Assembly: GCA_001314905.1 (NCBI GenBank)
Contig: LJZT01000026.1
Coordinates: 1 to 45,199, forward strand
DNA: 45,199 nt
Source of the DNA: Phormidium sp. OSCR
GTDB taxonomy: Bacteria; Cyanobacteriota; Cyanobacteriia; Cyanobacteriales; Geitlerinemataceae
Direction: 5' to 3'
The notes below the pieces were generated by a model that searched no databases, had not been told where the DNA came from, and saw only the letters and a program-made list of their open reading frames with translations. Each line of letters starts with the position of its first letter. Within the stretch, counting starts at the first letter, position 1. This document shows, one piece after another, positions 1-45,199 of the stretch. The position numbers were made by a program, and so were the translations under genes.

Positions 1-3
1 AGA

Positions 4-94
4 TAAGCACAAATCCTGTATTCTTTTTTGTGGGTTGCCATTCATCTCACCGCCAAATCAAAGATTATGGCGGGAGCCTTCTTGCAACATTGAG
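4..94 (-). mobile_element. IS200/IS605-type left end, copy A (element runs off the left edge)
   Basis: Bases 4-94 are the exact reverse complement of 45109-45199. On the minus strand the element starts with CTCAATGTTGC directly after TTAC (95-98), the insertion tetranucleotide of IS608-like elements. It contains a hairpin, CCGCCA-T-AATC pairing with GATT-TGGCGG around a TTT loop, in which one T is bulged. A subterminal hairpin with an extrahelical T is what HUH-Y1 TnpA transposases bind in this family. No transposase is visible because the window ends. The TTAC rule and hairpin are family knowledge; assigning this repeat to the family is inference. A TnpB-associated end or a non-autonomous derivative is also possible. 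Confidence 0.62.
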
Positions 95-760
95 GTAACG
101 GCCAATGGATGGCCTGACACCCCTAGGCCGCTTAATGGCAATATTATCGATCGACCGTCTCGGCTCCTGATACCAGAACAGGGGCAGTAGAGCAACCAAC
201 ACGCCTGCGGCTAAGATCCCCACGCTGAGCGACCAACCGAGTTGATCCAGAACCAGCAACATGACGCCGCCGCCCAAAATGCCGCCAATCGGTCGCCCTG
301 CACTCTGAATCCCGTTACCCCAGCCCCGCTCATGGGGGGCTAGCAGCCTCACCGCCAACGCATCAGTGGCGATGTCCTGGGTGGCCGCTAGGGTCACGAC
401 GATAAAAACACCCCCGAACAGCAGCACTGAGTTACTCGCATCAATCGAAGCGCAAGCGATCAGGGCCATCACTTTGAGAATCTGGAAAATAATAATCCAG
501 GATTTATAGTGGCCCCATCGGCGAAACCCATAGCGATCGATCAGGGGAGCCCAAAGAAATTTCAACATCCAGGGCAGGGTTAGCAAACCCATCAGGCCGA
601 TGACCTGCAACGAGACCCCCTGTTGGCGCAGAAAAATGGGCAGGGCTTGAAAGAAAAATGCAGACGGCAAAAACTGCGAGGTGTAGAGGCTGCTAAGCAG
701 GACGACTTTGAAGGCCGGGTGAATATTCTGCTGGGGGTGTGATTGGACTTGAAGAGCCAT
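65..760 (-). pseudogene. MFS transporter, RhtX/FptX-like siderophore permease, truncated by IS end
   Basis: The reading frame begins MALQVQSHPQQN and shows about six hydrophobic segments plus the MFS loop pattern (APLIDRYGFRRWG near residue 72; DIATDALAVRL near residue 130). Only 231 residues remain of the usual 400-430. The last ten residues (YLNVARRLPP) and the stop are encoded by the insertion-sequence end, so the C-terminal half was displaced by insertion after TTAC at 95-98. The gene starts 8 bp after the TonB-receptor stop, with GAGG upstream of the ATG, so it belongs to the same operon. That neighbourhood (AraC regulator, TonB receptor) suggests inner-membrane uptake of a ferric siderophore; an AmpG-like relative cannot be excluded. 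Transport function is probably lost here. Confidence 0.75.
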
Positions 761-3134: not shown

Positions 3135-3142
3135 GCCACCAA

Positions 3143-3166
3143 ATAGGAATACTTATCAATAACTCT
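3143..3166 (-). promoter_or_regulatory. Possible Fur-like box upstream of the receptor gene
   Basis: On the minus strand this stretch reads GAGTTATTGATAAGTATTCC, with one good GATAAT-like hexamer (GATAAG) and two weaker neighbours. It lies just upstream of the TonB-receptor start, where an iron-responsive operator would be expected. The match is weak and the call rests mostly on position. Confidence 0.22.
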
Positions 3167-3230
3167 TGACCGGCCGATGGTAAAGCGTGAGCGCTGAAGT
3201 TTTCTTTGCCAGCCGGATTTTTTTTCTGTC

Positions 3231-4229
3231 TCAGACGGACTTTTTCCCAGCCCGACCATGGGTTAACTGATACGCCTTGGGGCTTATGTCAAAGGTGCGA
3301 CGAAAGGCAACGCTAAAGGCTTCAGGACTGCGGTAGCCCACCAGTTGCGCCACGCCAGCAATCGTGGCTGCCGGCATCAACAGGAGTTGCTGAGCCTGCT
3401 GCATACGGTGGCTGTAGAGATAGCCAAACACCGTCGTTCCAAATACCTGGCGGAACCCTTGCTTGAGTTTGCGATCGTTGAGTCCGATCAGGCGGGATAA
3501 CTCTAGCAGCGTTGGCGGGTTGGTAATTCGGCTGAGCAAGATGTCTTTGGCGTAGAAAATGCGATCAATTTCATCGCCCTTCAGGCTAGACTTGTGGCTT
3601 GGAATGTCCAACAACAGGTGATCGAGACACAGGCTAATCAGCTCTAGGGCTTTGCTTTCGATGTAGAGCCGTTGGGTCAGTCCCTGATAAGGACAATGCA
3701 GCAGTTGTCCCAGAGTCGCTTCCATGACACTGGTCATCGAGTGAGAGCGACAATACTCTGCCTGCCCCGCGATCGCCTTTCTGAGCGCCACAGGTAGCTG
3801 CTGAGCCATCTCCCCATCGAACCCGCTCACACTCTCAGGCTGTATATGCAGGTGAATCAGTGTCACCCGCTCTTTGGCCTTATACTCCATGACACGACTC
3901 GATTCGTGAGTTACCCCAAAACTCACCCGCCCAGCTTCAACTCTCTCATCGTTCCCAGGGCGCAGTCGACGCATATGGCCCGCTAGACAAAAGCTAATCC
4001 CCAGCTTGACAGCTCCATCAGTACTCTCTCGCCTAACAATGGTGTTGTCTTGAAACTCCAAGTCGTGAATCATTAGGTCAAGTTCGGGGCGCAGCTGCCA
4101 GCGCTGAATCGAACCCTTGTAGTCCTCAGTCGTGGTGTTAGACTGGCTCGGCTTGTGGGATTCGGCCGGGAGAGGGCGCATCAGGGGGGTAGGTAAACGG
4201 ATCGTTGGGACAGAGTTACTCAGCTGCAT
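3231..4229 (-). CDS. AraC/PchR-family transcriptional regulator
   Basis: 332 residues. The C-terminal 100 residues form the double helix-turn-helix of AraC proteins. The first helix-turn-helix includes LLELSRLIGLNDRKLKQGFRQVFG, and the second ends with GYRSPEAFSVAFRRTFDISPKAYQ, the family signature. The N-terminal 200 residues are a ligand-sensing region without a recognised catalytic motif. In cyanobacteria and pseudomonads, PchR-like members sit beside siderophore receptor genes and activate them when the ferric siderophore is present. Here the gene is 96 bp upstream of the receptor on the same strand, fitting that role. The ATG at 4229 gives the longest sensible protein. It is divergent from cruP, so the 4230-4434 gap should carry promoters for both. 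Confidence 0.88.
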   Translation of the reverse strand: MQLSNSVPTIRLPTPLMRPLPAESHKPSQSNTTTEDYKGSIQRWQLRPELDLMIHDLEFQDNTIVRRESTDGAVKLGISFCLAGHMRRLRPGNDERVEAGRVSFGVTHESSRVMEYKAKERVTLIHLHIQPESVSGFDGEMAQQLPVALRKAIAGQAEYCRSHSMTSVMEATLGQLLHCPYQGLTQRLYIESKALELISLCLDHLLLDIPSHKSSLKGDEIDRIFYAKDILLSRITNPPTLLELSRLIGLNDRKLKQGFRQVFGTTVFGYLYSHRMQQAQQLLLMPAATIAGVAQLVGYRSPEAFSVAFRRTFDISPKAYQLTHGRAGKKSV

Positions 4230-22560: not shown

Positions 22561-23544
22561 ATGCCTCAGTCTCGTCAACTTGAACGTTTCCTGCGTATTG
22601 ATGAACTCTTGCGCCAGGAGTCCCGTTACACTCAGGAGGACTTAGCCAGAGCCTGTGAAGTGAGTCAACGCCAGATGCGAGAGGATCTCAACTTTTTGCG
22701 CGATCGCTATGATGCTCCCCTAAACTACAACCGCAAACAGGGTTGGCATTATACAGATCCGACCTGGCGTTTACCGTCGATTTCTCTGAGTCAGGGGGAA
22801 TTGTTGGCTCTGATGACGGCCTCTCAGATGTTGTCAGGCTATGGAGGCCTCTATGAAGCGGAGGTGCGATCGGCTTTGGAACAATTGGCGAAGCGTTTAC
22901 CAGATCAGTCTCGTATTGATTTGCAACAACTGGCCCATGAGCGGATGATTTTTGCTCCCGGAGCCAGTTTAAGTCTCGATCCCCAGATTTGGCGCACGGT
23001 GGTTGAAGCCACGCAAACACGACGTCGCTTGTGGTTGCGCTATTTTGCGGCCTCCCGACGCAAGGAGAGTGAGCGTGAGTTCGATCCGTATCTCATTCAT
23101 GTCTTCCGAGCGACGAATCTCTATCTGATTGGTTACTGTCATCTACGCCAGGATATCCGCTGGTTTCGGGTCGATCGCATCCGTGAGGCGCGGTTGTTGG
23201 ATATACCGTTTGAGGTGAATCCTGAGTTTGATGCCAAAACCCATCTGGAGAAGCTGTTTCAGGTGGAGGTGGGAGGCGAACCTCACTTGATTGAAATTGA
23301 ATTTGACCCACAAACCGCTCCGTTTGTCAAGGAGCGTCAGTGGCATTCCAGCCAAGAAGTTGAATGTCATAGGGATGGTTCAATGACGCTGCGGTTTACG
23401 GCGACGGGGTTGAATGAGATTAAACGTTGGCTGTTGGGGTATGGCAAGGGGGCGATCGCGCGTCATCCTCCTGAGTTAGTCGAAATGCTGCAAAATGAGA
23501 CCGAAACCATGGCCCGACAGTATGAAACGGGAGAGTTTGAATGA
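22561..23544 (+). CDS. WYL-domain transcriptional regulator of the CRISPR-Cas locus
   Basis: 327 residues. The N-terminus has a winged helix-turn-helix (RIDELLRQESRYTQEDLARACEVSQRQMREDLNFLRDRYDAPL, about 11-54). The WYL domain spans about 140-225 (TRRRLWLRYFAASRRKESEREFDPYLIHVFRATNLYLIGYCHLRQDIRWFRVDRI), followed by a C-terminal WCX-type region. WYL proteins at cyanobacterial CRISPR loci act as regulators; sll7009 of Synechocystis 6803 represses its type I-D locus. This gene is first in the direction of the cas operon, 148 bp before cas6, and likely senses a nucleic-acid-type ligand to control it. The ATG at 22561 matches the family N-terminus; no strong ribosome-binding site. Confidence 0.87.
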   Translation: MPQSRQLERFLRIDELLRQESRYTQEDLARACEVSQRQMREDLNFLRDRYDAPLNYNRKQGWHYTDPTWRLPSISLSQGELLALMTASQMLSGYGGLYEAEVRSALEQLAKRLPDQSRIDLQQLAHERMIFAPGASLSLDPQIWRTVVEATQTRRRLWLRYFAASRRKESEREFDPYLIHVFRATNLYLIGYCHLRQDIRWFRVDRIREARLLDIPFEVNPEFDAKTHLEKLFQVEVGGEPHLIEIEFDPQTAPFVKERQWHSSQEVECHRDGSMTLRFTATGLNEIKRWLLGYGKGAIARHPPELVEMLQNETETMARQYETGEFE

Positions 23545-23639
23545 TGAATGCTAAGGTAAAAAATATAAAATCCGCTCGTTCTACCACAATAAACGGCTCT
23601 AGCTATCTGCGCATTTGGGCGTTTGGTACATTTTGAAAC

Positions 23640-23672
23640 GTTACCCTTTGATGCCTTCAGGCGCTAAACTTT
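23640..23672 (+). promoter_or_regulatory. Degenerate CRISPR-repeat-like hairpin in the cas6 leader
   Basis: This stretch (starting GTTACCCTTTGATGCC) aligns with the array repeat at roughly 18 of 27 positions in its 3' part. It keeps the same 4-bp stem, TGCC pairing with GGCG around a 4-nt loop (23652-23663), and is followed by CTAAAC where the repeat has TTGAGCAC. It lies 30 bp before the cas6 start. A chance match is possible because the stem is short. Confidence 0.35.
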
Positions 23673-23692
23673 ACTCAATTCACCGAGGTCTT

Positions 23693-24373
23693 ATGACATT
23701 CGCCACACAATCTCATCCCCACTCCTCAGCGTCTATCCAATCGGCTTATATCGAACTCCATTTTCCAGCCCAGGGTCACACCTGGTGTGCTGACCAAAAT
23801 TACCGCCTGTTGGGGGCCATGGCGAAAGAACACCCAAGCCTACATCAGCTTGAGGGGTTAGCCATCAACACCATTTCTGGGATTCCCGATAAACAAGGTA
23901 AAATTCAACTGACAGAGGCTTCCCGCTTATCCCTGCGCTGTCCGAGTGAGTCACTCTTAACTGTATTACCCCTAGCTGGAAAAACCCTAAAAATCGGCGC
24001 TGATTCGATTTCGTTAGGATACCCAGAAGTTCGTCCCTTGCGTCCGGTTAGTGAATTAAAAGCCCGGTTAGTTGCCATTAAACATCCTTCAGGAAACTTT
24101 AACGAGGTTACACCCGATTGGTTTTTAGGAGCCTGCGATCGCCAACTCAAAGCATTAGGAATTGATGCCCCAGTCGGGATTCCCGCCAATGAAGATGGAG
24201 AGCCTGACCGAAAAACCTTAAAGATTAAGGGTAAAACTGTTGTCGGGTACAGCGTAGTTGTTGCAAACCTCTTACCGGAACAGTCCCTGCTCCTACAAAC
24301 CCGAGGGATTGGCGGAAAACGGCGAATGGGTTGTGGCTATTTCGTTCCCTATTGTCTCAATATCGGTGAGTGA
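23693..24373 (+). CDS. cas6: Cas6 endoribonuclease, MYXAN (Cmx6) type
   Basis: 226 residues from the ATG at 23693, with GAGG 5 nt upstream. Cas6 cuts the precursor CRISPR RNA within each repeat to release guides. Two ferredoxin-like halves are suggested by the strand pattern (AYIELHFPAQG at the start). The family glycine-rich loop sits at the C-terminus (LLLQTRGIGGKRRMGCGYFVPY). GVPIPAN-like text (DAPVGIPANEDGEPDRKTLKIKG) and LEGLAINTISG match the Cmx6 branch. Catalytic residues cannot be fixed by eye. It is followed 11 bp later by cas3. A repeat-like hairpin in its leader may allow self-regulation. Confidence 0.88.
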   Translation: MTFATQSHPHSSASIQSAYIELHFPAQGHTWCADQNYRLLGAMAKEHPSLHQLEGLAINTISGIPDKQGKIQLTEASRLSLRCPSESLLTVLPLAGKTLKIGADSISLGYPEVRPLRPVSELKARLVAIKHPSGNFNEVTPDWFLGACDRQLKALGIDAPVGIPANEDGEPDRKTLKIKGKTVVGYSVVVANLLPEQSLLLQTRGIGGKRRMGCGYFVPYCLNIGE

Positions 24374-24384
24374 GGGCTGATACC

Positions 24385-26679
24385 ATGAATCATAACTTAT
24401 TGGCAAAAAGCAAGCCACAACGCAGTCTCCAAGACCACTTAAACGATACAGAAGAAGCAGCGCGTTGGATTTTTCGCGATCGCATCCTAGAGAACTGGTG
24501 TCGTTTTTTCAAAACAGAGCCAACTCTATTTCTTCGCTTACTGCGTGTAGCCGCTCTCTTTCATGATGTCGGCAAAGCAAACCATGAGTTTCAGCAGATG
24601 TGCCATGGTCAACGGGTCAAACAAACCCTACGACATGAATGGCTCTCTGCCTTGATTTTACATTTATATGCTGTCCGAAATTGGCTAGATCCTGCCGAAA
24701 ACTTTGATTTTGAAGTGGTGGTTGCAGCCGTCCTCGGTCATCACATGAAGGCGGATGATAACTGGTCGAATACTTGTAAAACTGCCGTCAAGATCCTGGA
24801 CTTAGATTTAAACTCAGAACAAGTTCAGTCGGTCCTGCTTCGAGTTTGTAACATTTTAGATCTCAAAGAAGTTCCCAACGACCTTCCTGAGCGATGGAAC
24901 TTTGATGACCCCATTTGGAAAGCAGCCAGAAAGGATGGACGGTTCACCGGAAAAAAATCGTTTCAACGTTCGATCCGGCGTGATCCGAAACGACGAGGTT
25001 TACATTTAGCCGTCAAAGCGGGTCTGGTGGCAGCCGACACCGCCGCCTCGGGACTGATCCGTGAAGGTCATTCAATTCAAACCTGGATTGAGGAACAGCT
25101 ACATAAACCTCCTCTCACCGTTGAGGAATTAGATCGGGACATTCTTCACCCCAAATATAAAGCGTTAGAACGCACATTTGAGGAACTTTATAATTTCCAG
25201 AAAAATGCTCAAAACTTGAGCGATCGCGCCTTGCTACTCGCCGGGTGTGGTCGCGGCAAAACCCTAGCGGCATATCTCTGGGTTCGTGGAGTGATTCGTC
25301 GGGGAACCTATCCCATTGGTCGTGTCTTGTTTCTCTATCCTACTCGGGGAACCGCCACGGAGGGCTTTAAGGACTATGTGAAGGCTGCCCCTGAATCGGA
25401 TGCGGGTTTGTTTCATGGAACCAGTACCTATGAACTTGACCAACTGATGCAGTCACCGGATGATGGCGATTCGAGTGATGGTAAGTCCGATTATCGAACC
25501 GATCCCCGTCTATTTGCCTTGGGATTATGGGGGAAACGCTATCTGTCGGCCACAGTTGATCGCTTTTTAGCCTTTCTCTCCTTTGACTATGGTTCGACCG
25601 TGCTATTGCCTATGTTGAGTGATGCGGCGATTGTTCTCGATGAAATTCACGCCTATGATCGCCGAATGTTCGACCAAGTGGTGGCGTTTTTGAACGCATT
25701 TGATGGTCCCGTCTTGTGTATGACCGCTACTCTATCTGAAGTCCGACGCAACGAACTTGAAGACCTCGGCTTAGAACGCTATCCCCAAGATCGCCAAGAA
25801 TTGCGAGATTTAGCCCAAGAAGAAGAGCGCGATCGCTACCACATCCAACATTGTCAGCCCACAGTCGCCCAGCAAGCTGCGATCGAGGCCTATCAAGCCG
25901 GAAAACGGGTGCTTTGGGTCGTCAATACCGTTGGCCGTTGTCAGCAAATCACCAGGGAGGTACAGAAAACGTTCAAAAAGTTGGGAGACGAAGAGACTCA
26001 GGTGCTGTGTTACCACAGTCGTTTTAAACTCAAGCATCGCAACCAACGACATCAACAAGTGGTTCAAGCGTTCAAACAGTCGGAAGGTAAACCAGTAGAG
26101 AGGGCGATCGCCATCACCACTCAAGTCTGTGAGATGAGCCTTGATCTTGATGCAGACGTGTTAGTTACGGAACTCGCACCCTGTAGCGCCTTGGTACAGC
26201 GATTTGGCCGCAGTAACCGCCATGGGATTTTGGATCACTCGCAAATCTGGGTGTATGACCCCGAAAAACCGGCTCCCTATTCCAAAGAACAGCTTGAACG
26301 CGCTCATGAGTTTCTCCACGCTGTTATCAAGGCACAACCCTACAGTAGTCAGAAACTGCTAACTGAACAGTTGGAACGTTACGGAGAACGGGAAACGAAA
26401 GCCGATAAAAATGCTCCTTTTCTGACTGGGGGCTATTTCGCCAATCGCGAGTCATTCCGGGATATCGAGAACTGGACTCACGACTGTATTTTATGGCAGG
26501 ACTTAGACGAGGCGATCGCTCGGATCGAGGCCAAAGACCCCACATGGCACGAGTTGGTGCTTCCCGTTCCCAATTTTGTCCCCACTGAGCGACCCAGTGA
26601 CACCCAAGGACAGTTTCTCAAGTATCTGCGTCTGGCTCCCGATGCTCTTTACAGTGAAACCGTAGGATTTCAAGCATGA
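24385..26679 (+). CDS. cas3: Cas3 HD nuclease-helicase
   Basis: About 764 residues. An N-terminal HD nuclease domain (LFHDVGKANHEFQ, HD pair about 60-61; LGHHMK later) precedes a superfamily 2 helicase: GCGRGKT (motif I, about 286), DEIH (motif II, about 418), MTATLSE (motif III), TTQVCEMSLDLDADVL (motif V) and LVQRFGRSNR (motif VI). This enzyme is recruited by the Cascade complex and degrades the targeted DNA. I choose the ATG at 24385, which has GAGG 9 nt upstream; a GTG at 24370 overlapping the cas6 stop is possible. Its end overlaps the start of cas8 by 4 bp (ATGA), so they are translationally coupled. Confidence 0.92.
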   Translation: MNHNLLAKSKPQRSLQDHLNDTEEAARWIFRDRILENWCRFFKTEPTLFLRLLRVAALFHDVGKANHEFQQMCHGQRVKQTLRHEWLSALILHLYAVRNWLDPAENFDFEVVVAAVLGHHMKADDNWSNTCKTAVKILDLDLNSEQVQSVLLRVCNILDLKEVPNDLPERWNFDDPIWKAARKDGRFTGKKSFQRSIRRDPKRRGLHLAVKAGLVAADTAASGLIREGHSIQTWIEEQLHKPPLTVEELDRDILHPKYKALERTFEELYNFQKNAQNLSDRALLLAGCGRGKTLAAYLWVRGVIRRGTYPIGRVLFLYPTRGTATEGFKDYVKAAPESDAGLFHGTSTYELDQLMQSPDDGDSSDGKSDYRTDPRLFALGLWGKRYLSATVDRFLAFLSFDYGSTVLLPMLSDAAIVLDEIHAYDRRMFDQVVAFLNAFDGPVLCMTATLSEVRRNELEDLGLERYPQDRQELRDLAQEEERDRYHIQHCQPTVAQQAAIEAYQAGKRVLWVVNTVGRCQQITREVQKTFKKLGDEETQVLCYHSRFKLKHRNQRHQQVVQAFKQSEGKPVERAIAITTQVCEMSLDLDADVLVTELAPCSALVQRFGRSNRHGILDHSQIWVYDPEKPAPYSKEQLERAHEFLHAVIKAQPYSSQKLLTEQLERYGERETKADKNAPFLTGGYFANRESFRDIENWTHDCILWQDLDEAIARIEAKDPTWHELVLPVPNFVPTERPSDTQGQFLKYLRLAPDALYSETVGFQA

Positions 26680-28226
26680 TCGAACTCACCTATCGACTGG
26701 GACAGCTTCCAAGTCCCGCCTATCGTGCCGGCCTCGCTGGACTGGTGTTTTTAATTCGCTATCTCCACCGCGATCGCCCTGAAACAGAACCCCTGATTTA
26801 CACCGATATTAATCCATATGAGGCAACCTTTTACTGCGAGCCAGAAGGGTTGCAGGCATTGATGAACCTAGCCTTTGATGCCCATTACGAGGTGAAATTC
26901 TCTAAAAGCAAAATCAAAGATCCCATTGAAATTAAAGAGACGGAGGAGGGAAAACTCTATGGCTGGAATTTGCTAGTGGTCAAGGCCGCACCTTTACAGG
27001 AGCATGATCCGTCGGGACTTTGGACTCAACTTTGGTCAGACTGGTTATTGAATAGCATCCGGGCAATTCCTAAATCCCGCAAACCTTTTCAACTGCGAGC
27101 TAAGGGTGAGTCGGTGGCAATTGATAAACTCTGGAAAGCCTTACAAAAACCGGATGCCAAAGTGGGGCTAAGTTCATCGGCGCTGATTGGCGCGGAAGCC
27201 AAAACATCTGAGGGAGTCTCCCTCAATGATACCAATGCCCAACAATTCTTATTGAATTTTTGGGGTTATGTCAGTCAGCCTTATGTGCCTTGTCGGTTTG
27301 ATAGTGATGGTAAACGGGAAGACTGGGGCTATGCTGTTGCCATTCCCGATGTTCAAGATTTAGAGGACTTCATTGATGGATTTGCGGAGTTTCTTGAACG
27401 CCGTCGTCCGAATCCACCTCAATATAAGGGGTATCGACCGTTAGATGCCCTTGTAGAACTCCCGGAGGAAGCGGGACTGGATTCCTTACGGCTGATTCGA
27501 GAACGTATGACCCAAAGCGATCTGGCCAGCACCGTTGAATATGATGTGTTGGGGTTTGAAGTCTGTCATGGGGTTCGGACGAATGCCCAACGGGGTCCGG
27601 ATGTGATGACCATTAGCTATATTCAACCAGATTTAGAACGGGATAATCACTACGGCCGTATTCGAGAAACATTTCGTTGTCCTTGGTTTCGCCGACATTT
27701 ACTGCAAAATTTGCTGAAGCATCGCTCTTGGACAGCTCGTTGGGGAGACGTACTGTCAACAGCATCTCAGAAGTGGTTTGATAATCGCTTCTTTCCCCAT
27801 GATTGTCAACTTGTCTTTAATCGGGAGAAAAACATTGTGGAATTTCACGAATTAGCTCACATCATTAAATCCTTGTGCGATCGCTATCTCAATGCTCGCT
27901 TAGCCAGCAAAAATAAAGCTATTACCAAGGAAAACAAACACGAGGAGGCTCGACGAGAATTTTTTTCGGTGCGATCGCGCAGCCAGAAGGAAGCATTTCG
28001 AGAGTATTTCTTTGGCACGTTATGCAGTCAGGTAAATCCAGTTTTATCTGTCAACAAGCACAGTTCTCGATACGATGAAGACGAAAAGCTCCATCGAATG
28101 CTTTTACTGGCAGAAGCCATTGAGAAAAATACAGAAACTATTCGAGGTCTAACGATGTTGGCATTGGCGAGTAATTTCAATGCTTCTGAAAAAACAGATA
28201 AAGAACCTCCAAAGAAAGCGGACTAG
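26676..28226 (+). CDS. cas8: Cas8a1/Cmx8 (DevT-like) large subunit of Cascade
   Basis: 516 residues. The opening IELTYRLGQLPSPAYRAGLAGLVFLIRYL is characteristic of the MYXAN-type Cas8 (Cmx8; DevT in Myxococcus). Large subunits recognise the PAM and start target unwinding. The middle is weakly conserved; CPWFRRHLLQNLLKHRSWTARWGDV (about 330-355) stands out. The C-terminal ~130 residues are helical and charged and can be read as a built-in small subunit (see the Cas11 candidate). It overlaps cas3 by 4 bp and is followed 77 bp later by cas7, the same order as in the M. xanthus dev locus (devT-devR-devS). Confidence 0.85.
   Translation: MIELTYRLGQLPSPAYRAGLAGLVFLIRYLHRDRPETEPLIYTDINPYEATFYCEPEGLQALMNLAFDAHYEVKFSKSKIKDPIEIKETEEGKLYGWNLLVVKAAPLQEHDPSGLWTQLWSDWLLNSIRAIPKSRKPFQLRAKGESVAIDKLWKALQKPDAKVGLSSSALIGAEAKTSEGVSLNDTNAQQFLLNFWGYVSQPYVPCRFDSDGKREDWGYAVAIPDVQDLEDFIDGFAEFLERRRPNPPQYKGYRPLDALVELPEEAGLDSLRLIRERMTQSDLASTVEYDVLGFEVCHGVRTNAQRGPDVMTISYIQPDLERDNHYGRIRETFRCPWFRRHLLQNLLKHRSWTARWGDVLSTASQKWFDNRFFPHDCQLVFNREKNIVEFHELAHIIKSLCDRYLNARLASKNKAITKENKHEEARREFFSVRSRSQKEAFREYFFGTLCSQVNPVLSVNKHSSRYDEDEKLHRMLLLAEAIEKNTETIRGLTMLALASNFNASEKTDKEPPKKAD
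27837..28226 (+). CDS. Candidate Cas11 small subunit from an internal start in cas8
   Basis: An in-frame GTG at 27837 (codon 388 of cas8) has GGGAG (27823-27827) 9 nt upstream, a good Shine-Dalgarno spacing. The product would be 129 residues, helical and charged (starting VEFHELAHIIKSLCDRYLNA, ending with a lysine-rich tail). Internal translation of Cas11 from cas8/cas10d genes has been shown in types I-B, I-C and I-D, and no separate cas11 gene is present here. Use of this start is an inference. Confidence 0.5.
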   Translation: MEFHELAHIIKSLCDRYLNARLASKNKAITKENKHEEARREFFSVRSRSQKEAFREYFFGTLCSQVNPVLSVNKHSSRYDEDEKLHRMLLLAEAIEKNTETIRGLTMLALASNFNASEKTDKEPPKKAD

Positions 28227-28303
28227 CTCGGTTTTTGCTCTGAAAAACCTTGCCTCAGATACCCAGTCGGGATTGTTTACCCCATCGAATTTTATTCACA
28301 GTT

Positions 28304-29233
28304 ATGTCAACTTCAAACCCATCTCTCAATCTGTTTGCAACGGTCTTAACTCATGCTGCCCCGAGTAGTAATTATCGAGGTGAGTCAGAACAAAATCGAA
28401 CGGTTTTACAGAAAATTGCCCGAGGTGAACATCAATATGCCATTGTTTCTGCCGACTCTATTCGCAATGCTATGCGGGAAACTTTAGCTCAACTGGGCTT
28501 TCCCTGTAACCGTGTTCGCATCCAGGATGCGGGGCAATTAGCAGTCTCCTTTGAAAACTTGCCCAATCCTGATCAATATGCCGATGATTGGGCATTTGGC
28601 TACATGGTTGCGGATGAAAAAAAGTATGGAAAAAACATGAGCCATCCGACAAAACGAGATAGTATTATGCGGCTGAACACAGCCGTTGCGCTGGCTCCCT
28701 ATCGTTTTGAAGCCAGTTTGCATCAATCTCCCAAAAATGTAGAACGGAAACCCCGAACTAAAGTGTTTTGGTTGAACTCTAAGGAGTCTGCATTACTTCA
28801 TCGTGAGGCAAGTTATACGGCTTTTCAATATCCTGTTGCATTATGTGGGCGGGATTGTCAGACTAATCCAGAATGGACGAAAGGATTGCTACAAGCGATC
28901 GCCCAACTAAATAATGTCGCCGGTGCTCATGCTCGTAGCTATTTTGAGTTTGCCCCTCGCTCCTTAGTGGTTCGTTTAACACCAAAGCTTGTAGCAGGTT
29001 TTGATACCTATGGGTTTGATGAAACGGGCAACTGGCGGGAACTTTCCCGCTTGAATGATCAGGATTTACCGGCTCAAGAATTCTGGCTGGGTGGGGACTG
29101 TGTTCGTCAGATGTCAGAGGAAAAAGTTGACGCCTTAGAACAGGCGGGTGCTCATCTCTATCAAAACCCAGATCGCCTCTTGGACGAGTTGACGCAGGTG
29201 TTTCTAGGAGACTCAGATCGTGCTACTACTTAA
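28304..29233 (+). CDS. cas7: Cas7/DevR backbone subunit of Cascade
   Basis: 309 residues from the ATG at 28304 (MSTSNPSLNLFATVLTHAAP); the frame runs 18 codons further upstream. Cas7 forms the filament along the guide RNA. DevR-like features: N-terminal strand NLFATVLTHAAPSSNYRGESEQNRTVLQKI, ADSIRNAMRETL (the segment where Cas7 proteins bind RNA), AVALAPYRFEASLHQSP, and FQYPVALCGRDCQTNPEW. C-terminal RSLVVRLTPKLVAGFDTYGFDE closes the RRM-like fold. It overlaps cas5 by 14 bp. Confidence 0.88.
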   Translation: MSTSNPSLNLFATVLTHAAPSSNYRGESEQNRTVLQKIARGEHQYAIVSADSIRNAMRETLAQLGFPCNRVRIQDAGQLAVSFENLPNPDQYADDWAFGYMVADEKKYGKNMSHPTKRDSIMRLNTAVALAPYRFEASLHQSPKNVERKPRTKVFWLNSKESALLHREASYTAFQYPVALCGRDCQTNPEWTKGLLQAIAQLNNVAGAHARSYFEFAPRSLVVRLTPKLVAGFDTYGFDETGNWRELSRLNDQDLPAQEFWLGGDCVRQMSEEKVDALEQAGAHLYQNPDRLLDELTQVFLGDSDRATT

Positions 29234-29906
29234 GTTAAAGGCTCCCTTTGCCGCTTTTCGTCCCTTACAAGCGGGGACATTTCGCGCCACAGCTCCAACC
29301 ATTTCTCCAACCGCTGCCTATGGGTTATTGCTGAACATAGCTGCTATTGAAACTCGTGATTGGAGCAAGATTAGTAAATCAGCAACTCCAATGTTGAAGA
29401 ATCTGCCAAACATCGAGATTGCGATCGCCAATCGGATTGAGCCTGAAACAGCGATTCTGTTTCAGCAACTGCATAATGTCCCTGTAGGGAACGTTAAACC
29501 AGAACAGTGGGAACGCACTCAGGGATGTAAGCCTAATATCAAGCCTGTGCGTCGGGAAATTTTGGTGGACTTTGAGGCGGTGATAGCGGTGCGTTGTGAG
29601 ATGGACTTGCGATCGCGCATTCTCGCCGGTTTGGAGGGGGAATATAATGGCGATCGCTATGGCTTGCCATTTGCGGGGGACAATAATTTTTTATTTGATA
29701 CCATCGAGGTTTTACCGGCGGTGGCCCCTCTCCCTTGGTATTCTCGTATAGCAGACGATGCTCGGCCACAACGAGGAGTTTGTCGATTAACCACTTGGAT
29801 AGATCGCACTCAATCGAGTCAAACAGTGGTTGAAACCTTTGCTCCCATTTCTGACCCCACGGTGGAACCGCCAGACGGAGCCTGGACCATGTTACCTCGT
29901 CCATAA
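29220..29906 (+). CDS. cas5: Cas5/DevS subunit of Cascade
   Basis: 228 residues from a GTG at 29220 that overlaps cas7 by 14 bp; AGGAG lies 9 nt upstream and supports this start. The N-terminus LLLKLKAPFAAFRPLQAGTFRATAPTISPTAAYGLLLNIAAIE is the Cas5 signature (beta strand, then S/T-P-T-x-x-x-x-G-L-L). Cas5 caps the 5' handle of the guide RNA. The middle QLHNVPVGN and DLRSRILAGLEGEYNGDRYGLPFAGDNNFLFDTIEVL and the tryptophan-rich C-terminus agree with the DevS branch. Last gene of the effector set before an unrelated Uma2 gene. Confidence 0.9.
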   Translation: MLLLKLKAPFAAFRPLQAGTFRATAPTISPTAAYGLLLNIAAIETRDWSKISKSATPMLKNLPNIEIAIANRIEPETAILFQQLHNVPVGNVKPEQWERTQGCKPNIKPVRREILVDFEAVIAVRCEMDLRSRILAGLEGEYNGDRYGLPFAGDNNFLFDTIEVLPAVAPLPWYSRIADDARPQRGVCRLTTWIDRTQSSQTVVETFAPISDPTVEPPDGAWTMLPRP

Positions 29907-30627: not shown

Positions 30628-32283
30628 ATGACAACGACAACCCTATCCTCAACCTCAACGATTCGGGTTTGTGCCTTGCACGCCTTCGCCTATTGTCCTC
30701 GCCTTTTTTACCTCGAAGAAGTCGAAGAACTTTACACCCAAAATCAAGCGGTATTTGAAGGTCGTCGCTTGCACGCCGAACTTGAACGTCAAGAAGAGGG
30801 CGAATGGGACGATTTCTTTCTCACCGACGAAACCCTGGGTTTGCGAGGTCGGGTGGATGCCTTGCGGACTCGCGATGGACAGTTGATTCCTTACGAGCAT
30901 AAGAAGGGACGATGCTATCGTGATGCCAACAAACAGGCTCAGGCTTGGCAGAGCGATCGCCTGCAAATCCTCGCCTACTGCTGTCTCCTAGAAACCATTG
31001 CCCAACATCCCATTCAAGAAGGTCGTATCCGCTACCACGGCGATAACACCTTAGTCAAAATTCCCTTCAACCCGGAGACTCGTGCCGAAGTTGAAGCCGC
31101 TGTCGCCGCAGCACAAACCCTGCGCCAGTCCCAGCAACGTCCCCCCGTCACCGACAACGAGCGGCTTTGTGCCTCCTGTTCCCTGGCTCCCGTGTGTCTG
31201 CCCGAAGAAACACGCTTTACTGACGATGACACCCATCAACCGCCGCGCTTGTTTCCCAAGGATGATGACCGCCAAATTGTCCATATCCTGGAACCGGGAA
31301 CCCGAGTGGGACGCACAGGGGAGCAGTTGAAAATCACCCGTCGCAATCAGCCGGTAGAAACCCTCTCCGTGCGTCAGGTGCAACAAGTTGTCCTTCATAG
31401 CTTCTCGCAAATCTCCACCCAAGCCTTGCATCTTTGTACCTATCACGACATCGGCGTTCATTGGATTTCTGGAGGCGGGCGCTATGTGGGCAGTTTGGAT
31501 TGGCGACAAGGTAGTCTACAACGGCGCTGTGGGCAATATCGAGCCCTCACCCAGCCGGAGATTTGCCTGGATTTGGCCCAGCGTTTAGTCACCTGTCGCG
31601 CCAAAGGGCAACGTCAGTTTCTGATGCGTGGCAAACGCAATCTCAATGGTTCCACGGAAGCCGTGGCCTCAGTGGTGACCTCCATGAAGCGGCTATTAAA
31701 ATCCATTGAGCGCGCCGAGTCCCTAGAGCAACTCTTGGGATTGGAGGGGAATCTAGCCGCCCTCTATTTTTCCGGGTTAGGACACCTGGTGTCTGCCAAA
31801 GTGGCCCCAGAGTTGCAGTTCAATGGACGCAATCGCCGTCCTCCGAAGGATCGCTTTAATGCCTTATTGGGATTCGGCTACAGTTTGTTGCTTAAGGATG
31901 TCATTAACGCCATTTTGACCGTGGGGTTGGAGCCAGGATTGGGGTTCTACCACCAGTTACGCTCTCAGGCCCCTCCCCTGGGATTGGATTTGATGGAGAT
32001 TTTCCGAGTTTCCCTTGTGGATATGCCGATTTTGGCTTCTGTGAATCGCAGTCAGTGGGATGTCGTGGCGGATTTCGACATTCGCGGCGATCGGGTTTGG
32101 CTGAGTGAGGCGGGCCGTCGCAAGTTCATCGAGATTTATGAGCGGCGCAAGGGGGAGAGTTGGAAACATCCGGTTCTCAAATATTCCCTCACCTACCGTC
32201 GTCTGTTGGAGTTGGAAGTGCGGCTATTGGAGAAAGAGTGGTCTGGGGAAGCGAATGTGTTTGCTCGTTCTGTGGTTCGTTAG
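30628..32283 (+). CDS. cas4-cas1: Cas4-Cas1 fusion, spacer integrase with PAM-end processing nuclease
   Basis: 551 residues. The first ~200 form Cas4: an N-terminal Cys (TIRVCALHAFAYCPRLFYLEEVEE), RGRVDALR and IPYEHKKGRCYRDANKQAQAW (RecB-type motifs II/III), and a C-terminal cysteine cluster (LCASCSLAPVC) completing the Fe-S site. The remaining ~340 are Cas1, which inserts spacers: LLGLEGNLAALYFSGLGHLV (catalytic E), GLGFYHQLRSQAPPLGLDLMEIFRVSLVDM (catalytic H and D/E). The fusion is typical of I-G and MYXAN loci, including the M. xanthus dev locus. The ATG at 30628 has AAGGT 8 nt upstream. A terminator-like hairpin before it implies its own promoter. Followed by cas2 after 14 bp. Confidence 0.93.
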   Translation: MTTTTLSSTSTIRVCALHAFAYCPRLFYLEEVEELYTQNQAVFEGRRLHAELERQEEGEWDDFFLTDETLGLRGRVDALRTRDGQLIPYEHKKGRCYRDANKQAQAWQSDRLQILAYCCLLETIAQHPIQEGRIRYHGDNTLVKIPFNPETRAEVEAAVAAAQTLRQSQQRPPVTDNERLCASCSLAPVCLPEETRFTDDDTHQPPRLFPKDDDRQIVHILEPGTRVGRTGEQLKITRRNQPVETLSVRQVQQVVLHSFSQISTQALHLCTYHDIGVHWISGGGRYVGSLDWRQGSLQRRCGQYRALTQPEICLDLAQRLVTCRAKGQRQFLMRGKRNLNGSTEAVASVVTSMKRLLKSIERAESLEQLLGLEGNLAALYFSGLGHLVSAKVAPELQFNGRNRRPPKDRFNALLGFGYSLLLKDVINAILTVGLEPGLGFYHQLRSQAPPLGLDLMEIFRVSLVDMPILASVNRSQWDVVADFDIRGDRVWLSEAGRRKFIEIYERRKGESWKHPVLKYSLTYRRLLELEVRLLEKEWSGEANVFARSVVR

Positions 32284-32297
32284 GGAGGTCAGAAAAG

Positions 32298-32591
32298 ATG
32301 GCTGAATTGCATCACTGGTATATTGTCGCCTATGACATCCGCTCTCCCAAGCGTTGGCGTAAGGCCTATAAGCTGTTGCAGGGATATGGGAGCCGTTTGC
32401 AGTATTCGATGTTTCGCTGTTGGTTGAATCCACGGGAACGGGAGAAACTGCGATGGCAACTGGAGTCGATTTTGACGGCGGAGGATGAGTTACTGTTGAT
32501 TCGGCTGTCTCACCAATGTGTCCGAGATTTGCCGCAATATAACCGTCGGGAGGCATGGTCTTTGGATGAGTTGCCTTATCGGGTGATGTAG
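32298..32591 (+). CDS. cas2: Cas2, adaptation complex subunit
   Basis: 97 residues from the ATG at 32298, preceded by AGGGAGGT (32282-32289), a strong ribosome-binding site. The first strand HHWYIVAYDIRSPKRWRKAYKLLQGYGSRLQYSMFRCWL has the conserved D after the first beta strand and the Y-G-x-x-x-Q-x-S-x-F/Y motif. Cas2 bridges two Cas1 dimers during spacer insertion. It lies 14 bp after cas4-cas1 and just before the leader. Confidence 0.95.
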   Translation: MAELHHWYIVAYDIRSPKRWRKAYKLLQGYGSRLQYSMFRCWLNPREREKLRWQLESILTAEDELLLIRLSHQCVRDLPQYNRREAWSLDELPYRVM

Positions 32592-32851
32592 GGGGAAGAA
32601 TGTGCAAGGATAGCTCGATGTTGACTCAAGGGATGAGTGACCTGTGGCTGAAATGCTTGTTGGCTCAAGGTTTTGGGCTGCTTGGGGGTGCGAGGGTTGC
32701 TTGCAATTTCTGGAAAGTCTCTCTATGTCTGGGTTTGCGGAGTCTGGGGTTGGCTGGTCTGGAGGCTCTTGAGGCTGGGTCAGGCTATCCTGGTGGTATC
32801 CTTGTCAAACGGTCTGTGAAACTAAGCTCTATGGCGGTTTCGAGGGTCGCA
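32592..32851 (+). promoter_or_regulatory. CRISPR leader
   Basis: 260 bp between cas2 and the first repeat without a believable gene. The strand is unusually G/T-rich (for example GGTTTTGGGCTGCTTGGGGG), as seen in other cyanobacterial leaders. I place the leader on this side because the repeat forms its better hairpin (GAAA tetraloop, G-U wobble) when read in this direction. I cannot fix the promoter. Confidence 0.7.
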
Positions 32852-35800
32852 GTTTAATTCCTCTGATTGCCGAAAGGCGTTGAGCACAGAGTCAGGAGAA
32901 GGCGATCGCCGAAGCGGAAAAAGGTTTAATTCCTCTGATTGCCGAAAGGCGTTGAGCACCTTCAAAGAGCAGCAAATCACTTTAGGTCTTTTTCCGTTTA
33001 ATTCCTCTGATTGCCGAAAGGCGTTGAGCACAGTGCCATCATTGCTGGCTGTAACGGCCGCGCTCCGTTTAATTCCTCTGATTGCCGAAAGGCGTTGAGC
33101 ACAAGGAAGACCTGGCATATCGTCCGGGGATTGGCTGGTGTTTAATTCCTCTGATTGCCGAAAGGCGTTGAGCACTGACTGATTCTGAATATCAACAATT
33201 GGAACTGGACAATGTTTAATTCCTCTGATTGCCGAAAGGCGTTGAGCACGGGACAGAAAAGCTGAACGAGACCGCCGATTGAGCGGTTTAATTCCTCTGA
33301 TTGCCGAAAGGCGTTGAGCACATGAGGATGAGGATATGGATTGCTGCGATCGCGTAAGTTTAATTCCTCTGATTGCCGAAAGGCGTTGAGCACCAAACTA
33401 CAGCCCGAAGGCTGCTAAGGCGGAACTCGTTTAATTCCTCTGATTGCCGAAAGGCGTTGAGCACGGCTTGGCCGGACGCGAAAATGTGGCCTCCTTTGAC
33501 CAGGAGTTTAATTCCTCTGATTGCCGAAAGGCGTTGAGCACACTCTCAATCGCTTCTAGCAGCTTCCAAAGTGTCGCAGGTTTAATTCCTCTGATTGCCG
33601 AAAGGCGTTGAGCACAAATAGCTTGCTGTCTAAGCTCCAGTTCTTGAATCGTTTAATTCCTCTGATTGCCGAAAGGCGTTGAGCACATTCGCAATCCTTC
33701 CCGCCAGAGGGCTGAGTCTGGGGTTTAATTCCTCTGATTGCCGAAAGGCGTTGAGCACCTGACCACCTTGTTGAGAATCCCGACATTTGACCAGTGGGTT
33801 TAATTCCTCTGATTGCCGAAAGGCGTTGAGCACGGTCGGGAACCCGTGATGACAGGCGGAATCCGCCTTTTGTTTAATTCCTCTGATTGCCGAAAGGCGT
33901 TGAGCACATGGCCCACAAAAAGAAACTAACTGACCCCACGGTTGTTTAATTCCTCTGATTGCCGAAAGGCGTTGAGCACCTTGAACCTATTTTCTCTTAT
34001 TTCGGAGGATTGCTAGGGTTTAATTCCTCTGATTGCCGAAAGGCGTTGAGCACGAGAATAACCGTTTTCCCTGTTTCGACACAACAGAGTTTAATTCCTC
34101 TGATTGCCGAAAGGCGTTGAGCACGGAGTACAATCTTCTTCTTGTTCATAGCTTTTTAGTCTAAGTTTAATTCCTCTGATTGCCGAAAGGCGTTGAGCAC
34201 TAGGCGACCCACTTGTTGCAACTAAACGTGTTGGGAGTTTAATTCCTCTGATTGCCGAAAGGCGTTGAGCACATTTAGAAGGAACACCCACGGCAAGCTT
34301 CCGTTCTCGTTTAATTCCTCTGATTGCCGAAAGGCGTTGAGCACTCCAAGATACAGTATCTATGATGCGCCGACAAGTAAGTTTAATTCCTCTGATTGCC
34401 GAAAGGCGTTGAGCACCGACGCTTCCAGGCATTAAAGTTCCGCCCTTAAAGGGGTTTAATTCCTCTGATTGCCGAAAGGCGTTGAGCACTAATCATCCTC
34501 TGGCTCACTGAGTTCCAAAACCACCATGTTTAATTCCTCTGATTGCCGAAAGGCGTTGAGCACGATAAAGTGGTTGGTAGGTGTGCTGTTACTATATTCT
34601 GGTTTAATTCCTCTGATTGCCGAAAGGCGTTGAGCACAGCAACATCACTTCTATAACCCGGCACGGACACAGCAGTTTAATTCCTCTGATTGCCGAAAGG
34701 CGTTGAGCACATGCCAATGTAATTTAGTAATCGTAGGGATAGGGATGTTTAATTCCTCTGATTGCCGAAAGGCGTTGAGCACGGATGAATGAGACAACCT
34801 GATCCGCTACAATCCGGCAAAGTTTAATTCCTCTGATTGCCGAAAGGCGTTGAGCACATAAGAAGTGGGAACCCCTGCTGAGGGAATACTCAGGTTTAAT
34901 TCCTCTGATTGCCGAAAGGCGTTGAGCACGATGATGGATGGTTTACCTCAATGTTGCAAGAAGGCTGTTTAATTCCTCTGATTGCCGAAAGGCGTTGAGC
35001 ACAACCTTCTTAGCTTTTCTGCCATACCCCTCGAACCGTTTAATTCCTCTGATTGCCGAAAGGCGTTGAGCACATACTGGCACGGAGATTTTCACCCCAA
35101 AATATATAGTTTAATTCCTCTGATTGCCGAAAGGCGTTGAGCACTGGCCCAATCGACAATCAGCTATTACAGAAAGGGAGTTTAATTCCTCTGATTGCCG
35201 AAAGGCGTTGAGCACTTTTTTCGCCGGAAATCCCAGCGTGTGTTTCTTCCTGTTTAATTCCTCTGATTGCCGAAAGGCGTTGAGCACAAGAGGATTTAGC
35301 GGGAAGTGCGCGTTGCTCAGAAGTTTAATTCCTCTGATTGCCGAAAGGCGTTGAGCACTACCTAAGTATTGACCACCACGACAAAGGGCGAGAGTTTAAT
35401 TCCTCTGATTGCCGAAAGGCGTTGAGCACGAGCGACATAGAGGCGAGAATCAAAGCCCGCTTAGAAGGTTTAATTCCTCTGATTGCCGAAAGGCGTTGAG
35501 CACTTTCAGTTGGTGCAGGGGAACCAGTCGTTCCTCATCGTTTAATTCCTCTGATTGCCGAAAGGCGTTGAGCACATAATCGCCATCGGCCATATAAAAC
35601 CCACCTTTCAAGTTTAATTCCTCTGATTGCCGAAAGGCGTTGAGCACGGTAGCCGCCGATTCTCGGTATTGACGAGCTATTTGTTTAATTCCTCTGATTG
35701 CCGAAAGGCGTTGAGCACTCCCTGCCCGATTCTGAGGGTGGGGCAGAATTCCGGTGTTTAATTCCTCTGATTGCCGAAAGGCGTTGAGCACAACGTGCTT

Positions 35801-38091
35801 CCTGGCGCTTCTGCCGAGAGGGAAAAGTTTAATTCCTCTGATTGCCGAAAGGCGTTGAGCATCTTCTTCCATAATCCTGCGCTGCGATACTCGGCTAGTT
35901 TAATTCCTCTGATTGCCGAAAGGCGTTGAGCATAAGAACTATCCCTATTGCGATACTCCCGCCGTAGTGTTTAATTCCTCTGATTGCCGAAAGGCGTTGA
36001 GCATAGAACAAAGCATTACTGTAATCGCCGCTGAACTCCAGTTTAATTCCTCTGATTGCCGAAAGGCGTTGAGCATTAGGTAAAGGGCTTGAAATGATGG
36101 GGGTGTGGCAGTTTAATTCCTCTGATTGCCGAAAGGCGTTGAGCATTCATCAACACCTGTACTAGCATCGAAGAAATCGAAGGTTTAATTCCTCTGATTG
36201 CCGAAAGGCGTTGAGCATCTAATTCTAACCGCGTGTTATTGCCCCTTTTGTTGGCGTTTAATTCCTCTGATTGCCGAAAGGCGTTGAGCATACAAAACCA
36301 AAGCGAAACTCACTGAAACAGTATCAGGTGTTTAATTCCTCTGATTGCCGAAAGGCGTTGAGCATTAGGCATGGCAAGGATTTCAGCCTACGTACCAACG
36401 CGTTTAATTCCTCTGATTGCCGAAAGGCGTTGAGCATGAAATTTTAAACCACCCCAGCTATACAATCTCAGCGTTTAATTCCTCTGATTGCCGAAAGGCG
36501 TTGAGCATGAATTCGTGGGTATAATGTCGCTGGATTCTCGTTCGAGTTTAATTCCTCTGATTGCCGAAAGGCGTTGAGCATTGAACGACGCTTTGCTTAC
36601 AGACTATGCTATCGGGGTTTAATTCCTCTGATTGCCGAAAGGCGTTGAGCATTTATTCGCGCCTTAAAGGTGCGCCATTCTTCTTACGTTTAATTCCTCT
36701 GATTGCCGAAAGGCGTTGAGCATGTGGAAGCAGGTAGAAGAAATAGGATTGACAAGAGGTTTAATTCCTCTGATTGCCGAAAGGCGTTGAGCATTGGCTA
36801 CCTGCGGCAATTACCAGGTAATTCACCCCGTTTAATTCCTCTGATTGCCGAAAGGCGTTGAGCATCGTGAGAAGGGCGACGAATCCTACGGGTTTATCAA
36901 CTGTTTAATTCCTCTGATTGCCGAAAGGCGTTGAGCATTCTTCTTTGTTCCGCTGTTCATCAGCGGTGTCTGCCTCGTTTAATTCCTCTGATTGCCGAAA
37001 GGCGTTGAGCATGTCTAATAGGTCGCTGTACATTGCCGCATCTATTGTAGTTTAATTCCTCTGATTGCCGAAAGGCGTTGAGCATAGGTCGATGATCGCG
37101 GACCGGGACATTGGCACTCCGGTTTAATTCCTCTGATTGCCGAAAGGCGTTGAGCATCCCTTAATCAACAATTATGCCTCTCTTAAATGATGTTTAATTC
37201 CTCTGATTGCCGAAAGGCGTTGAGCATAGTATAAAGGATTCCGACGGAAAAAAAATAGGTATGTTTAATTCCTCTGATTGCCGAAAGGCGTTGAGCATCT
37301 TCAAAGGATAGAATTTTCCTTTGATTTTATTATGTGTTTAATTCCTCTGATTGCCGAAAGGCGTTGAGCATTTCTCTCCATGTTGAATGGAAGTTTTGAC
37401 ATACTGAGTTTAATTCCTCTGATTGCCGAAAGGCGTTGAGCATGAAGTTTTGACATACTGAACAAAGGCATTCAGTATGTTTAATTCCTCTGATTGCCGA
37501 AAGGCGTTGAGCATAGCCGCTTGCAGCCGGTATGCAGAATGCTCCCGTAAGTTTAATTCCTCTGATTGCCGAAAGGCGTTGAGCATAGGAGTTCCAGGTA
37601 AAAATGCTCGGTGCGAGTGGGTGTTTAATTCCTCTGATTGCCGAAAGGCGTTGAGCACGCCTGGTCTATTCTCAAGGAAGACCTGGCATATCGCGTTTAA
37701 TTCCTCTGATTGCCGAAAGGCGTTGAGCACCTTCCGAGACATCTATCTGACCTTAGAGGAGTTAGGTTTAATTCCTCTGATTGCCGAAAGGCGTTGAGCA
37801 CGACGGAGATTATAGCGGAATAACCCAGGCAATCTTGTATGTTTAATTCCTCTGATTGCCGAAAGGCGTTGAGCACGAGCCAAATATCGAAATAACAGTG
37901 TCATGGCAAGAGTTTAATTCCTCTGATTGCCGAAAGGCGTTGAGCACACCAAGCGGCGTAGGTTATCCAATTCTTGTATTCGGTTTAATTCCTCTGATTG
38001 CCGAAAGGCGTTGAGCACGGCATCACATCCGGCATGACGACCTTGGTCGTCGCGCGTTTAATTCCTCTGATTGCCGAAAGGCGTTGAGCAC
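32852..38091 (+). CRISPR. CRISPR array, 73 repeats of 36 bp, 72 spacers
   Basis: The repeat begins GTTTAATTCCTCTGATTGCC and ends GAAAGGCGTTGAGCAC. All 73 copies are identical except for the last base. Repeats 1-41 end in C, repeats 42-66 (35827-37586) end in T, and repeats 67-73 end in C again. Spacers are 34-41 bp. The stem TGCC-GAAA-GGCG leaves an 8-nt 3' remainder, TTGAGCAC, which would be the 5' handle after Cas6 cleavage. With the leader on the left, spacer 1 (32888-32923) is newest and spacer 72 (38019-38055) oldest. Overlapping spacer pairs: 4/67 and 63/64. Spacer 29 matches the IS end at the window edges. No degenerate terminal repeat is present. Confidence 0.99.
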
Positions 38092-45083: not shown

Positions 45084-45108
45084 GGCCAGGCTTGTTTTTT
45101 GTTTTTAC

Positions 45109-45199
45109 CTCAATGTTGCAAGAAGGCTCCCGCCATAATCTTTGATTTGGCGGTGAGATGAATGGCAACCCACAAAAAAGAATACAGGATTTGTGCTTA
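45109..45199 (+). mobile_element. IS200/IS605-type left end, copy B (element runs off the right edge)
   Basis: Identical over 91 bp to the reverse complement of 4-94 and again directly preceded by TTAC (45105-45108). The hairpin with one bulged T lies at 45129-45152. The element would extend to the right. Its insertion point is just downstream of argF, so no gene is broken here. Confidence 0.62.

Follow-up and report, generated by a model that had tools for sequence, protein, structure and literature searches.

Can a CRISPR spacer hold sequence from an insertion sequence (IS) that is still resident at no fewer than 14 places in the same genome, and do so without turning the system on its host? 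The question is raised by spacer 29 of the 72 spacers in the array described here, which runs from a short flank into the left end of such an element. The array lies in the window, as we call the whole stretch of 45,199 bases that was analyzed; it is an entire contig (C45) of a draft genome of 4.69 Mb in 187 contigs. We consider it probable that spacer 29 was taken from a carrier that held the resident-type IS at a site absent from the readable genome, and that this carrier would be attacked while the resident copies are ignored.

Results

A type I-B operon and its array

From its gene content, the CRISPR-Cas system is assigned to type I-B, MYXAN/Cmx8 branch, whose gene set is complete in the window. 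All genes are on the plus strand, where a gene for a WYL-domain regulator (22561..23544) is followed by cas6 (Cas6b / MYXAN; 23615..24373), cas3 (24370..26679), cas8b (26676..28226), cas7b (28250..29233), cas5b (29220..29906), a cas4-cas1 fusion (30628..32283) and cas2 (32295..32591). Two PDB chains match the cas8b product, 8ip0_J under the name Cmx8 and 8h67_L under the name Cas8, and cas7b was called by PADLOC and has no Pfam match. The 260 nt that separate cas2 from the array (32592..32851) are the presumed leader; a gap of about 250 nt is found at the same place in pSYLB of Synechocystis PCC 6714. The array itself (32852..38091, plus strand) comprises 73 repeats of 36 nt and spacers of 34-41 nt.

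Several side features of this stretch were recorded. Repeats 1-41 and 67-73 end in C and repeats 42-66 in T; we read this as a variant that came and went in the history of the array, via reversion or array recombination. Spacers 4 (33103-33139) and 67 (37659-37694) share a 20-nt overlap despite their distance in the array, and the adjacent spacers 63 (37372-37407) and 64 (37444-37478) share an overlap of 18 nt, which in both cases we attribute to one element family being sampled repeatedly. Elsewhere in the window, 769-3134 on the minus strand reads by eye as a TonB-dependent receptor-like gene in two overlapping ORFs, possibly through a frameshift.

Spacer 29 ends in a transposon left end

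Spacer 29 (34930..34966, plus strand) is 37 nt long, inside the length spread of the array. It consists of a 13-nt flank of the source insertion (34930..34942), the target tetranucleotide TTAC (34943..34946) and 20 nt (34947..34966) that are identical to the first bases of the resident left ends. A preliminary description of this DNA had reported that 34942-34966 equals 45104-45128 and had read the shared bases as T plus TTAC plus the first 20 nt of a putative IS left end. Its mention of bases 4-25 in the 3' half of the spacer is hard to place. These coordinates are right, the match is exact over 25 of the 37 nt, and the proposed composition agrees with 14 contig-end copies that stand after TTAC. 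The leading T is a coincidence, since TTTA ends only some of the resident flanks.

An accidental or unrelated match, in which the 25 nt would be no transposon end or the source would be merely similar, could draw on the fact that the left-end core is partly common to relatives. However, only 7e-6 exact 25-mers are expected between 72 spacers and 4.69 Mb on both strands, and the match opens at TTAC, preceded by a single chance T, and extends to the last base of the spacer. Moreover, all 11 related loci compared carry at least 3 mismatches over the 24 nt of TTAC and IS in spacer 29, which makes such an accident scarcely credible. Over these 24 nt the spacer agrees with the resident element at 24/24 positions and with the best of the 11 related loci at 21/24. 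By this sequence agreement the donor carried the resident element or one indistinguishable from it, and a known cousin is disfavored.

The resident element and its relatives

A whole-genome search with CCTCAATGTTGCAAGAAGG, allowing 2 mismatches, returned 15 places, all of them exact: spacer 29 and 14 contig ends. The 14 resident left ends are 100% identical across the 95-98 nt present on the contigs. Each has the boundary TTA/CC, each is preceded by TTAC, and each has a different flank. Two of them border the window, as the preliminary description had noticed: TTAC and the left end lie at 45105..45199 on the plus strand (sequence search, identity and fold) and at 1..98 on the minus strand (sequence search and identity). 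Identical left ends at 14 contig ends with differing flanks are what a repeated element that breaks short-read assembly produces, and both ends of the window are therefore assembly breaks caused by the element.

The left end folds as DNA into a hairpin of -15.6 kcal/mol (z -3.05), which none of 200 shuffles equaled. IS608 of Helicobacter pylori, a member of the IS200/IS605 family, is described as inserting 3' of TTAC, which is kept as the left flank (PMC5934647). The same rule holds here, insertion lying directly 3' of a fixed TTAC kept on the left in all 14 left ends and in spacer 29, and the imperfect subterminal hairpin of the IS608 left end also has its counterpart in the resident element. 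With its TTAC target, its subterminal hairpin and several relatives that contain tnpB, the element looks IS200/IS605-like. The preliminary description had made its reading depend on the shared 25 nt being an IS terminus, and an IS200/IS605-type left end after TTAC is what they enter.

The exact variant of the left end appears to be private to this genome. Its 23-mer had no match among genome contigs outside it, and viral contigs yielded no match to the 20-nt left end, to a relaxed left-end pattern or to a hairpin-side pattern. Left-end relatives were met as weaker matches only in 5 of 387 other genomes of the class (E 1e-9, sampled, with 2 candidates scored per genome), and 8 of 14 family genomes, this one included, match the left end at E 0.001.

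The genes of the element are predicted from these relatives. At three genus-mate loci with listed ORFs the left end leads into tnpB, one of them split into two frames, and the Pfam domain OrfB_IS605 was found in the two tnpB genes tested from genus-mate loci. Among 13 related loci, a set that partly overlaps these three, a TnpB-like ORF was seen by eye in 6 and none in 7. Within this genome, TnpB homology searches did not reveal the element body. The body and right end were also sought at the starts of 60 of the 187 contigs (160 nt each); some of these starts read N, so that the body may lie in unreadable DNA or may have been lost. An IS608-like right end would carry a hairpin, end in TCAA and leave the target unduplicated. 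Right ends of sister elements in the genome finish in TGTCAA, but none of them could be assigned to the present left end; Y1 transposases elsewhere in the genome gave 5 matches.

Other elements in this genome deserve mention in their own right. An apparently complete element of about 0.4 kb on contig C160 (about 2727-3107) has hairpins at both ends, and by eye it contains no transposase. Its right-end sequence is present 25 times in the genome, counting C160. This short element was considered as the source of the right end and was rejected, as its left end differs. On contig C14 (locus L084, C14:72000-76000), an IscB-like ORF (RRXRR + HNH; about 2920-3973, minus strand) is followed by a right-end-like hairpin and ATGTCAA, and the right-end-like stretch before this hairpin has TTTACCTCAATGTTG in common with the present left end. 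At the start of contig C35 (1-300), a Y1 transposase gene is apparently interrupted by the left end of another element after TTAC.

Array orientation, PAM and seed side

The repeat and that of Synechocystis PCC 6714 pSYLB are alike in 24 of 36 columns, among them the final 14, and the pSYLB array, in the same orientation, lies downstream of type I-MYXAN cas4/cas1 and cas2. The PAM of the type I-B Myxan system of Synechocystis PCC 6714 is given as 5'-AYG, from binding assays (PMC11096372); we infer from the shared name that the pSYLB array belongs to this system.

Protospacer candidates for other spacers of the present array were collected from genus mates and the Phormidium yuhuli plasmid. Matches with at most 11 mismatches, identical ones counted once, gave 22 rows, from which four array-holding loci and the matches of spacer 29 on resident junctions had been left out beforehand. 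Twelve rows were kept and spacer 24 was added. The rows dropped were 3 of spacer 29, 3 of spacer 1 (PAM TCG), a second place of spacer 56 (PAM CTA), 1 of spacer 70 on a clostridial contig, and 2, from spacers 67 and 4, on viral contigs that had been retrieved with a pattern derived from these same spacers. In 6 of the 13 candidates ATG lies 5' of the protospacer (binomial 2e-8 at 1/64 each, with the candidates partly non-independent), as it does in 3 of the 8 candidates with at least 30 matched bases (binomial 2e-4). A pyrimidine occupies -2 in 11/13. Other trinucleotides precede 7 of the 13, and 5 of the 13 are weak candidates that fall short of 30 matched bases. A reversed-spacer control gave 3 matches in the same 809,171 bases.

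Were the array to be read in the reverse orientation, the seed would fall inside the element and every resident copy would be threatened. The reverse-complement repeat terminates in AATTAAAC, somewhat like ATTGAAAC, the handle of other type I repeats, and the fold of the repeat RNA on the plus strand is indecisive (z -1.0, with no clear Cas6 hairpin). However, the array agrees in orientation with that of Synechocystis PCC 6714, its right end stands 78 nt from a convergent ORF versus 260 nt on the cas2 side, and the side of the 13 candidates opposite the ATG trend has no recurring trinucleotide, so that a reversed reading is highly improbable. On balance, the agreement in orientation and PAM with PCC 6714 and the PAM trend in the present array argue for a seed at the 5' end of the spacer and hence within the 13-nt flank. 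The preliminary description had likewise placed the seed in the flank of the target.

Resident junctions present neither PAM nor seed

Across the 14 resident junctions, 25-30 of the 37 nt of spacer 29 are matched, and the distal 24 are always among them. The 5' bases of the spacer, which had been said to differ from two resident junctions, differ from all 14, the 13-nt flank being matched at just 1-6 positions. None of the 14 junctions has AYG at -3 to -1, and of the first 8 nt, the seed, 0-5 positions match. Type I R-loops begin at the PAM and seed, so the resident copies would be expected to go unharmed. The escape of resident copies put forward in the preliminary description thus gains a basis in PAM and seed, and from these two features we infer tolerance itself.

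Search for the source

The 17-mer of flank plus TTAC occurs exactly in the readable genome solely within spacer 29, with 6 further places at 1-2 mismatches, so in the readable genome the site is seen neither with the element nor as the product of a precise excision. In broader collections the 17-mer was found in 37 genome contigs, against about 30 expected by our own estimate. It is preceded by ATG in 2 of these, both clostridial; 4 of the 37 are cyanobacterial, none with ATG. Seven viral contigs contain it, none with a preceding ATG, and the 19-mer of ATG plus flank had no match in viral contigs. The junction 24-mer, at up to 3 mismatches in 388 sampled genomes of the class, returned the spacer itself alone. 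Among the 14 family genomes, ATG plus flank plus TTAC at up to 3 mismatches was met at 6 places, spacer 29 included, where the backward control gave 3 and chance is estimated at about 4. When spacer 29 with its left-end extension was compared with plasmids, the single record was a distant left-end relative on a Chroococcidiopsis plasmid, and phages gave no match.

The preliminary description had called for a search with the full spacer and a listing of the IS flanks. The listing gave 14 distinct flanks, and no match to flank plus TTAC plus IS was found; the collections searched contained no protospacer of spacer 29 in plasmids, phages or further mobile elements and no credible empty site. Its proposal that the source was an invader, or another locus, with the same IS in a different target is supported as to the different target, since the flank is missing from the readable genome, and the searches produced no plasmid or phage as carrier.

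Other spacers do lead to mobile-looking DNA. Contiguous stretches of the array had no match in phages and matched three plasmid records, two of which look like repeat matches; the third corresponds to spacer 62. Spacers 62-64 (64 weakly) match a contig of a related genome (G012, C2) that is the counterpart of the Phormidium yuhuli AB48 plasmid, with integrase and VapE-domain genes; the contig and the AB48 plasmid are matched by the array at the same coordinates. Spacers 4, 7 (weakly), 8, 14, 16, 56 and 67 all match one chromosomal stretch of a genus mate (L190; G007:C1:1405000-1422000), in which one ORF reads by eye as integrase-like and another, large one as primase-like. By analogy with these spacers, spacer 29 more likely came from an invader.

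Self-acquisition would instead derive the spacer from a copy on the host chromosome at a locus since deleted, or from a replicon or stretch that escaped assembly or lies outside the readable sequence. The exact element variant has been met in this genome alone, and the assembly is broken at repeats into 187 contigs, both of which suit such an origin. On the other side stand the flank plus TTAC, exact in the spacer alone within the readable genome, and the remaining spacers, which do not match the genome at E 0.01 apart from a weak match of spacer 1. Furthermore, targeting of a chromosomal site is usually lethal. Self-acquisition, the main rival, is rather unlikely.

Alternatively, the spacer might record the circular junction of right end and left end in an excised element, and not an integrated copy. 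IS608 is described as having a circular junction intermediate (PMC5934647), and the junction DNA would enter the same left end. In such a circle, however, the right end and not a TTAC flank joins the left end, and sister right ends finish in TGTCAA. With its 14 copies, the element should also show its right end repeatedly at contig ends, whereas the 17-mer is exact solely in spacer 29. We consider a circular source very improbable and retain an integrated copy, probably in an invader, as the source.

Discussion

We propose that Cas4/Cas1-Cas2 cut spacer 29 out of double-stranded DNA in which the resident IS200/IS605-type element, or an identical one, stood after a TTAC site missing from the readable genome. 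The likeliest carrier would be a plasmid, integrative element or phage of the same lineage. In the plus-orientation reading, the crRNA would consist of TTGAGCAC (or GTTGAGCAC) and the spacer. Its seed would pair with the carrier's own DNA, and the element would pair with the seed-distal 20-24 nt alone. The effector would then attack a single IS-bearing allele and spare at least 14 resident left ends, which offer it no PAM and no seed.

An extension of this proposal is that immunity is specific to the insertion allele, the carrier being recognized just while the IS occupies the TTAC site. The argument is that an IS-free carrier keeps the PAM but merely the first 17 of the 37 nt, and we put the idea forward as doubtful and speculative. 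If true, the carrier could escape through the precise excision that this IS family typically shows, and CRISPR pressure would be coupled to transposon loss. Junction spacers, in turn, would be what is left after selection has removed spacers that lie fully inside a multi-copy resident IS.

Under the proposed origin, spacer 29 is the trace of one transposition into DNA later treated as foreign, and a spacer can hold the sequence of a resident IS without a usable self-target. It becomes testable whether spacers that touch a resident IS include an excess of junction spacers. The genus-mate stretch L190, with its seven candidate protospacers, one of them weak, is a good locus for PAM definition.

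The predicted CRISPR-Cas system resembles the type I-B (MYXAN/Cmx8) system of Synechocystis PCC 6714 in its Cas4-Cas1 fusion, in the order of cas2, gap and array, in a repeat ending in GGCGTTGAGCAC and in a Cas8b that matches the Cmx8 structure. The 5' half of the repeat and the spacers differ, and the system in the window is known as a prediction from sequence. Similarly, the element shares with IS608 the TTAC left flank and the subterminal left-end hairpin. Unlike IS608, it is known by its left end, and the relatives read have tnpB behind the left end, with no tnpA noticed beside it (by eye).

Spacers against a plasmid-borne IS200/IS605 element in a host with related copies have already been published (PMC3839810), and we claim no priority for junction-spanning spacers. 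In Sulfolobus solfataricus P2, as described there, plasmid pMGB1 carries ISC1467, an IS200/IS605 element that gave rise to de novo spacers; 24 spacers are given as matching ISC1467, and acquisition was accompanied by transposition of an OrfB element and by loss of an OrfB element from the plasmid. The present case is alike in that a spacer was drawn from an IS200/IS605 element with related copies in the host. It differs in that a single spacer, in a cyanobacterial type I-B array, spans both the element and its flank.
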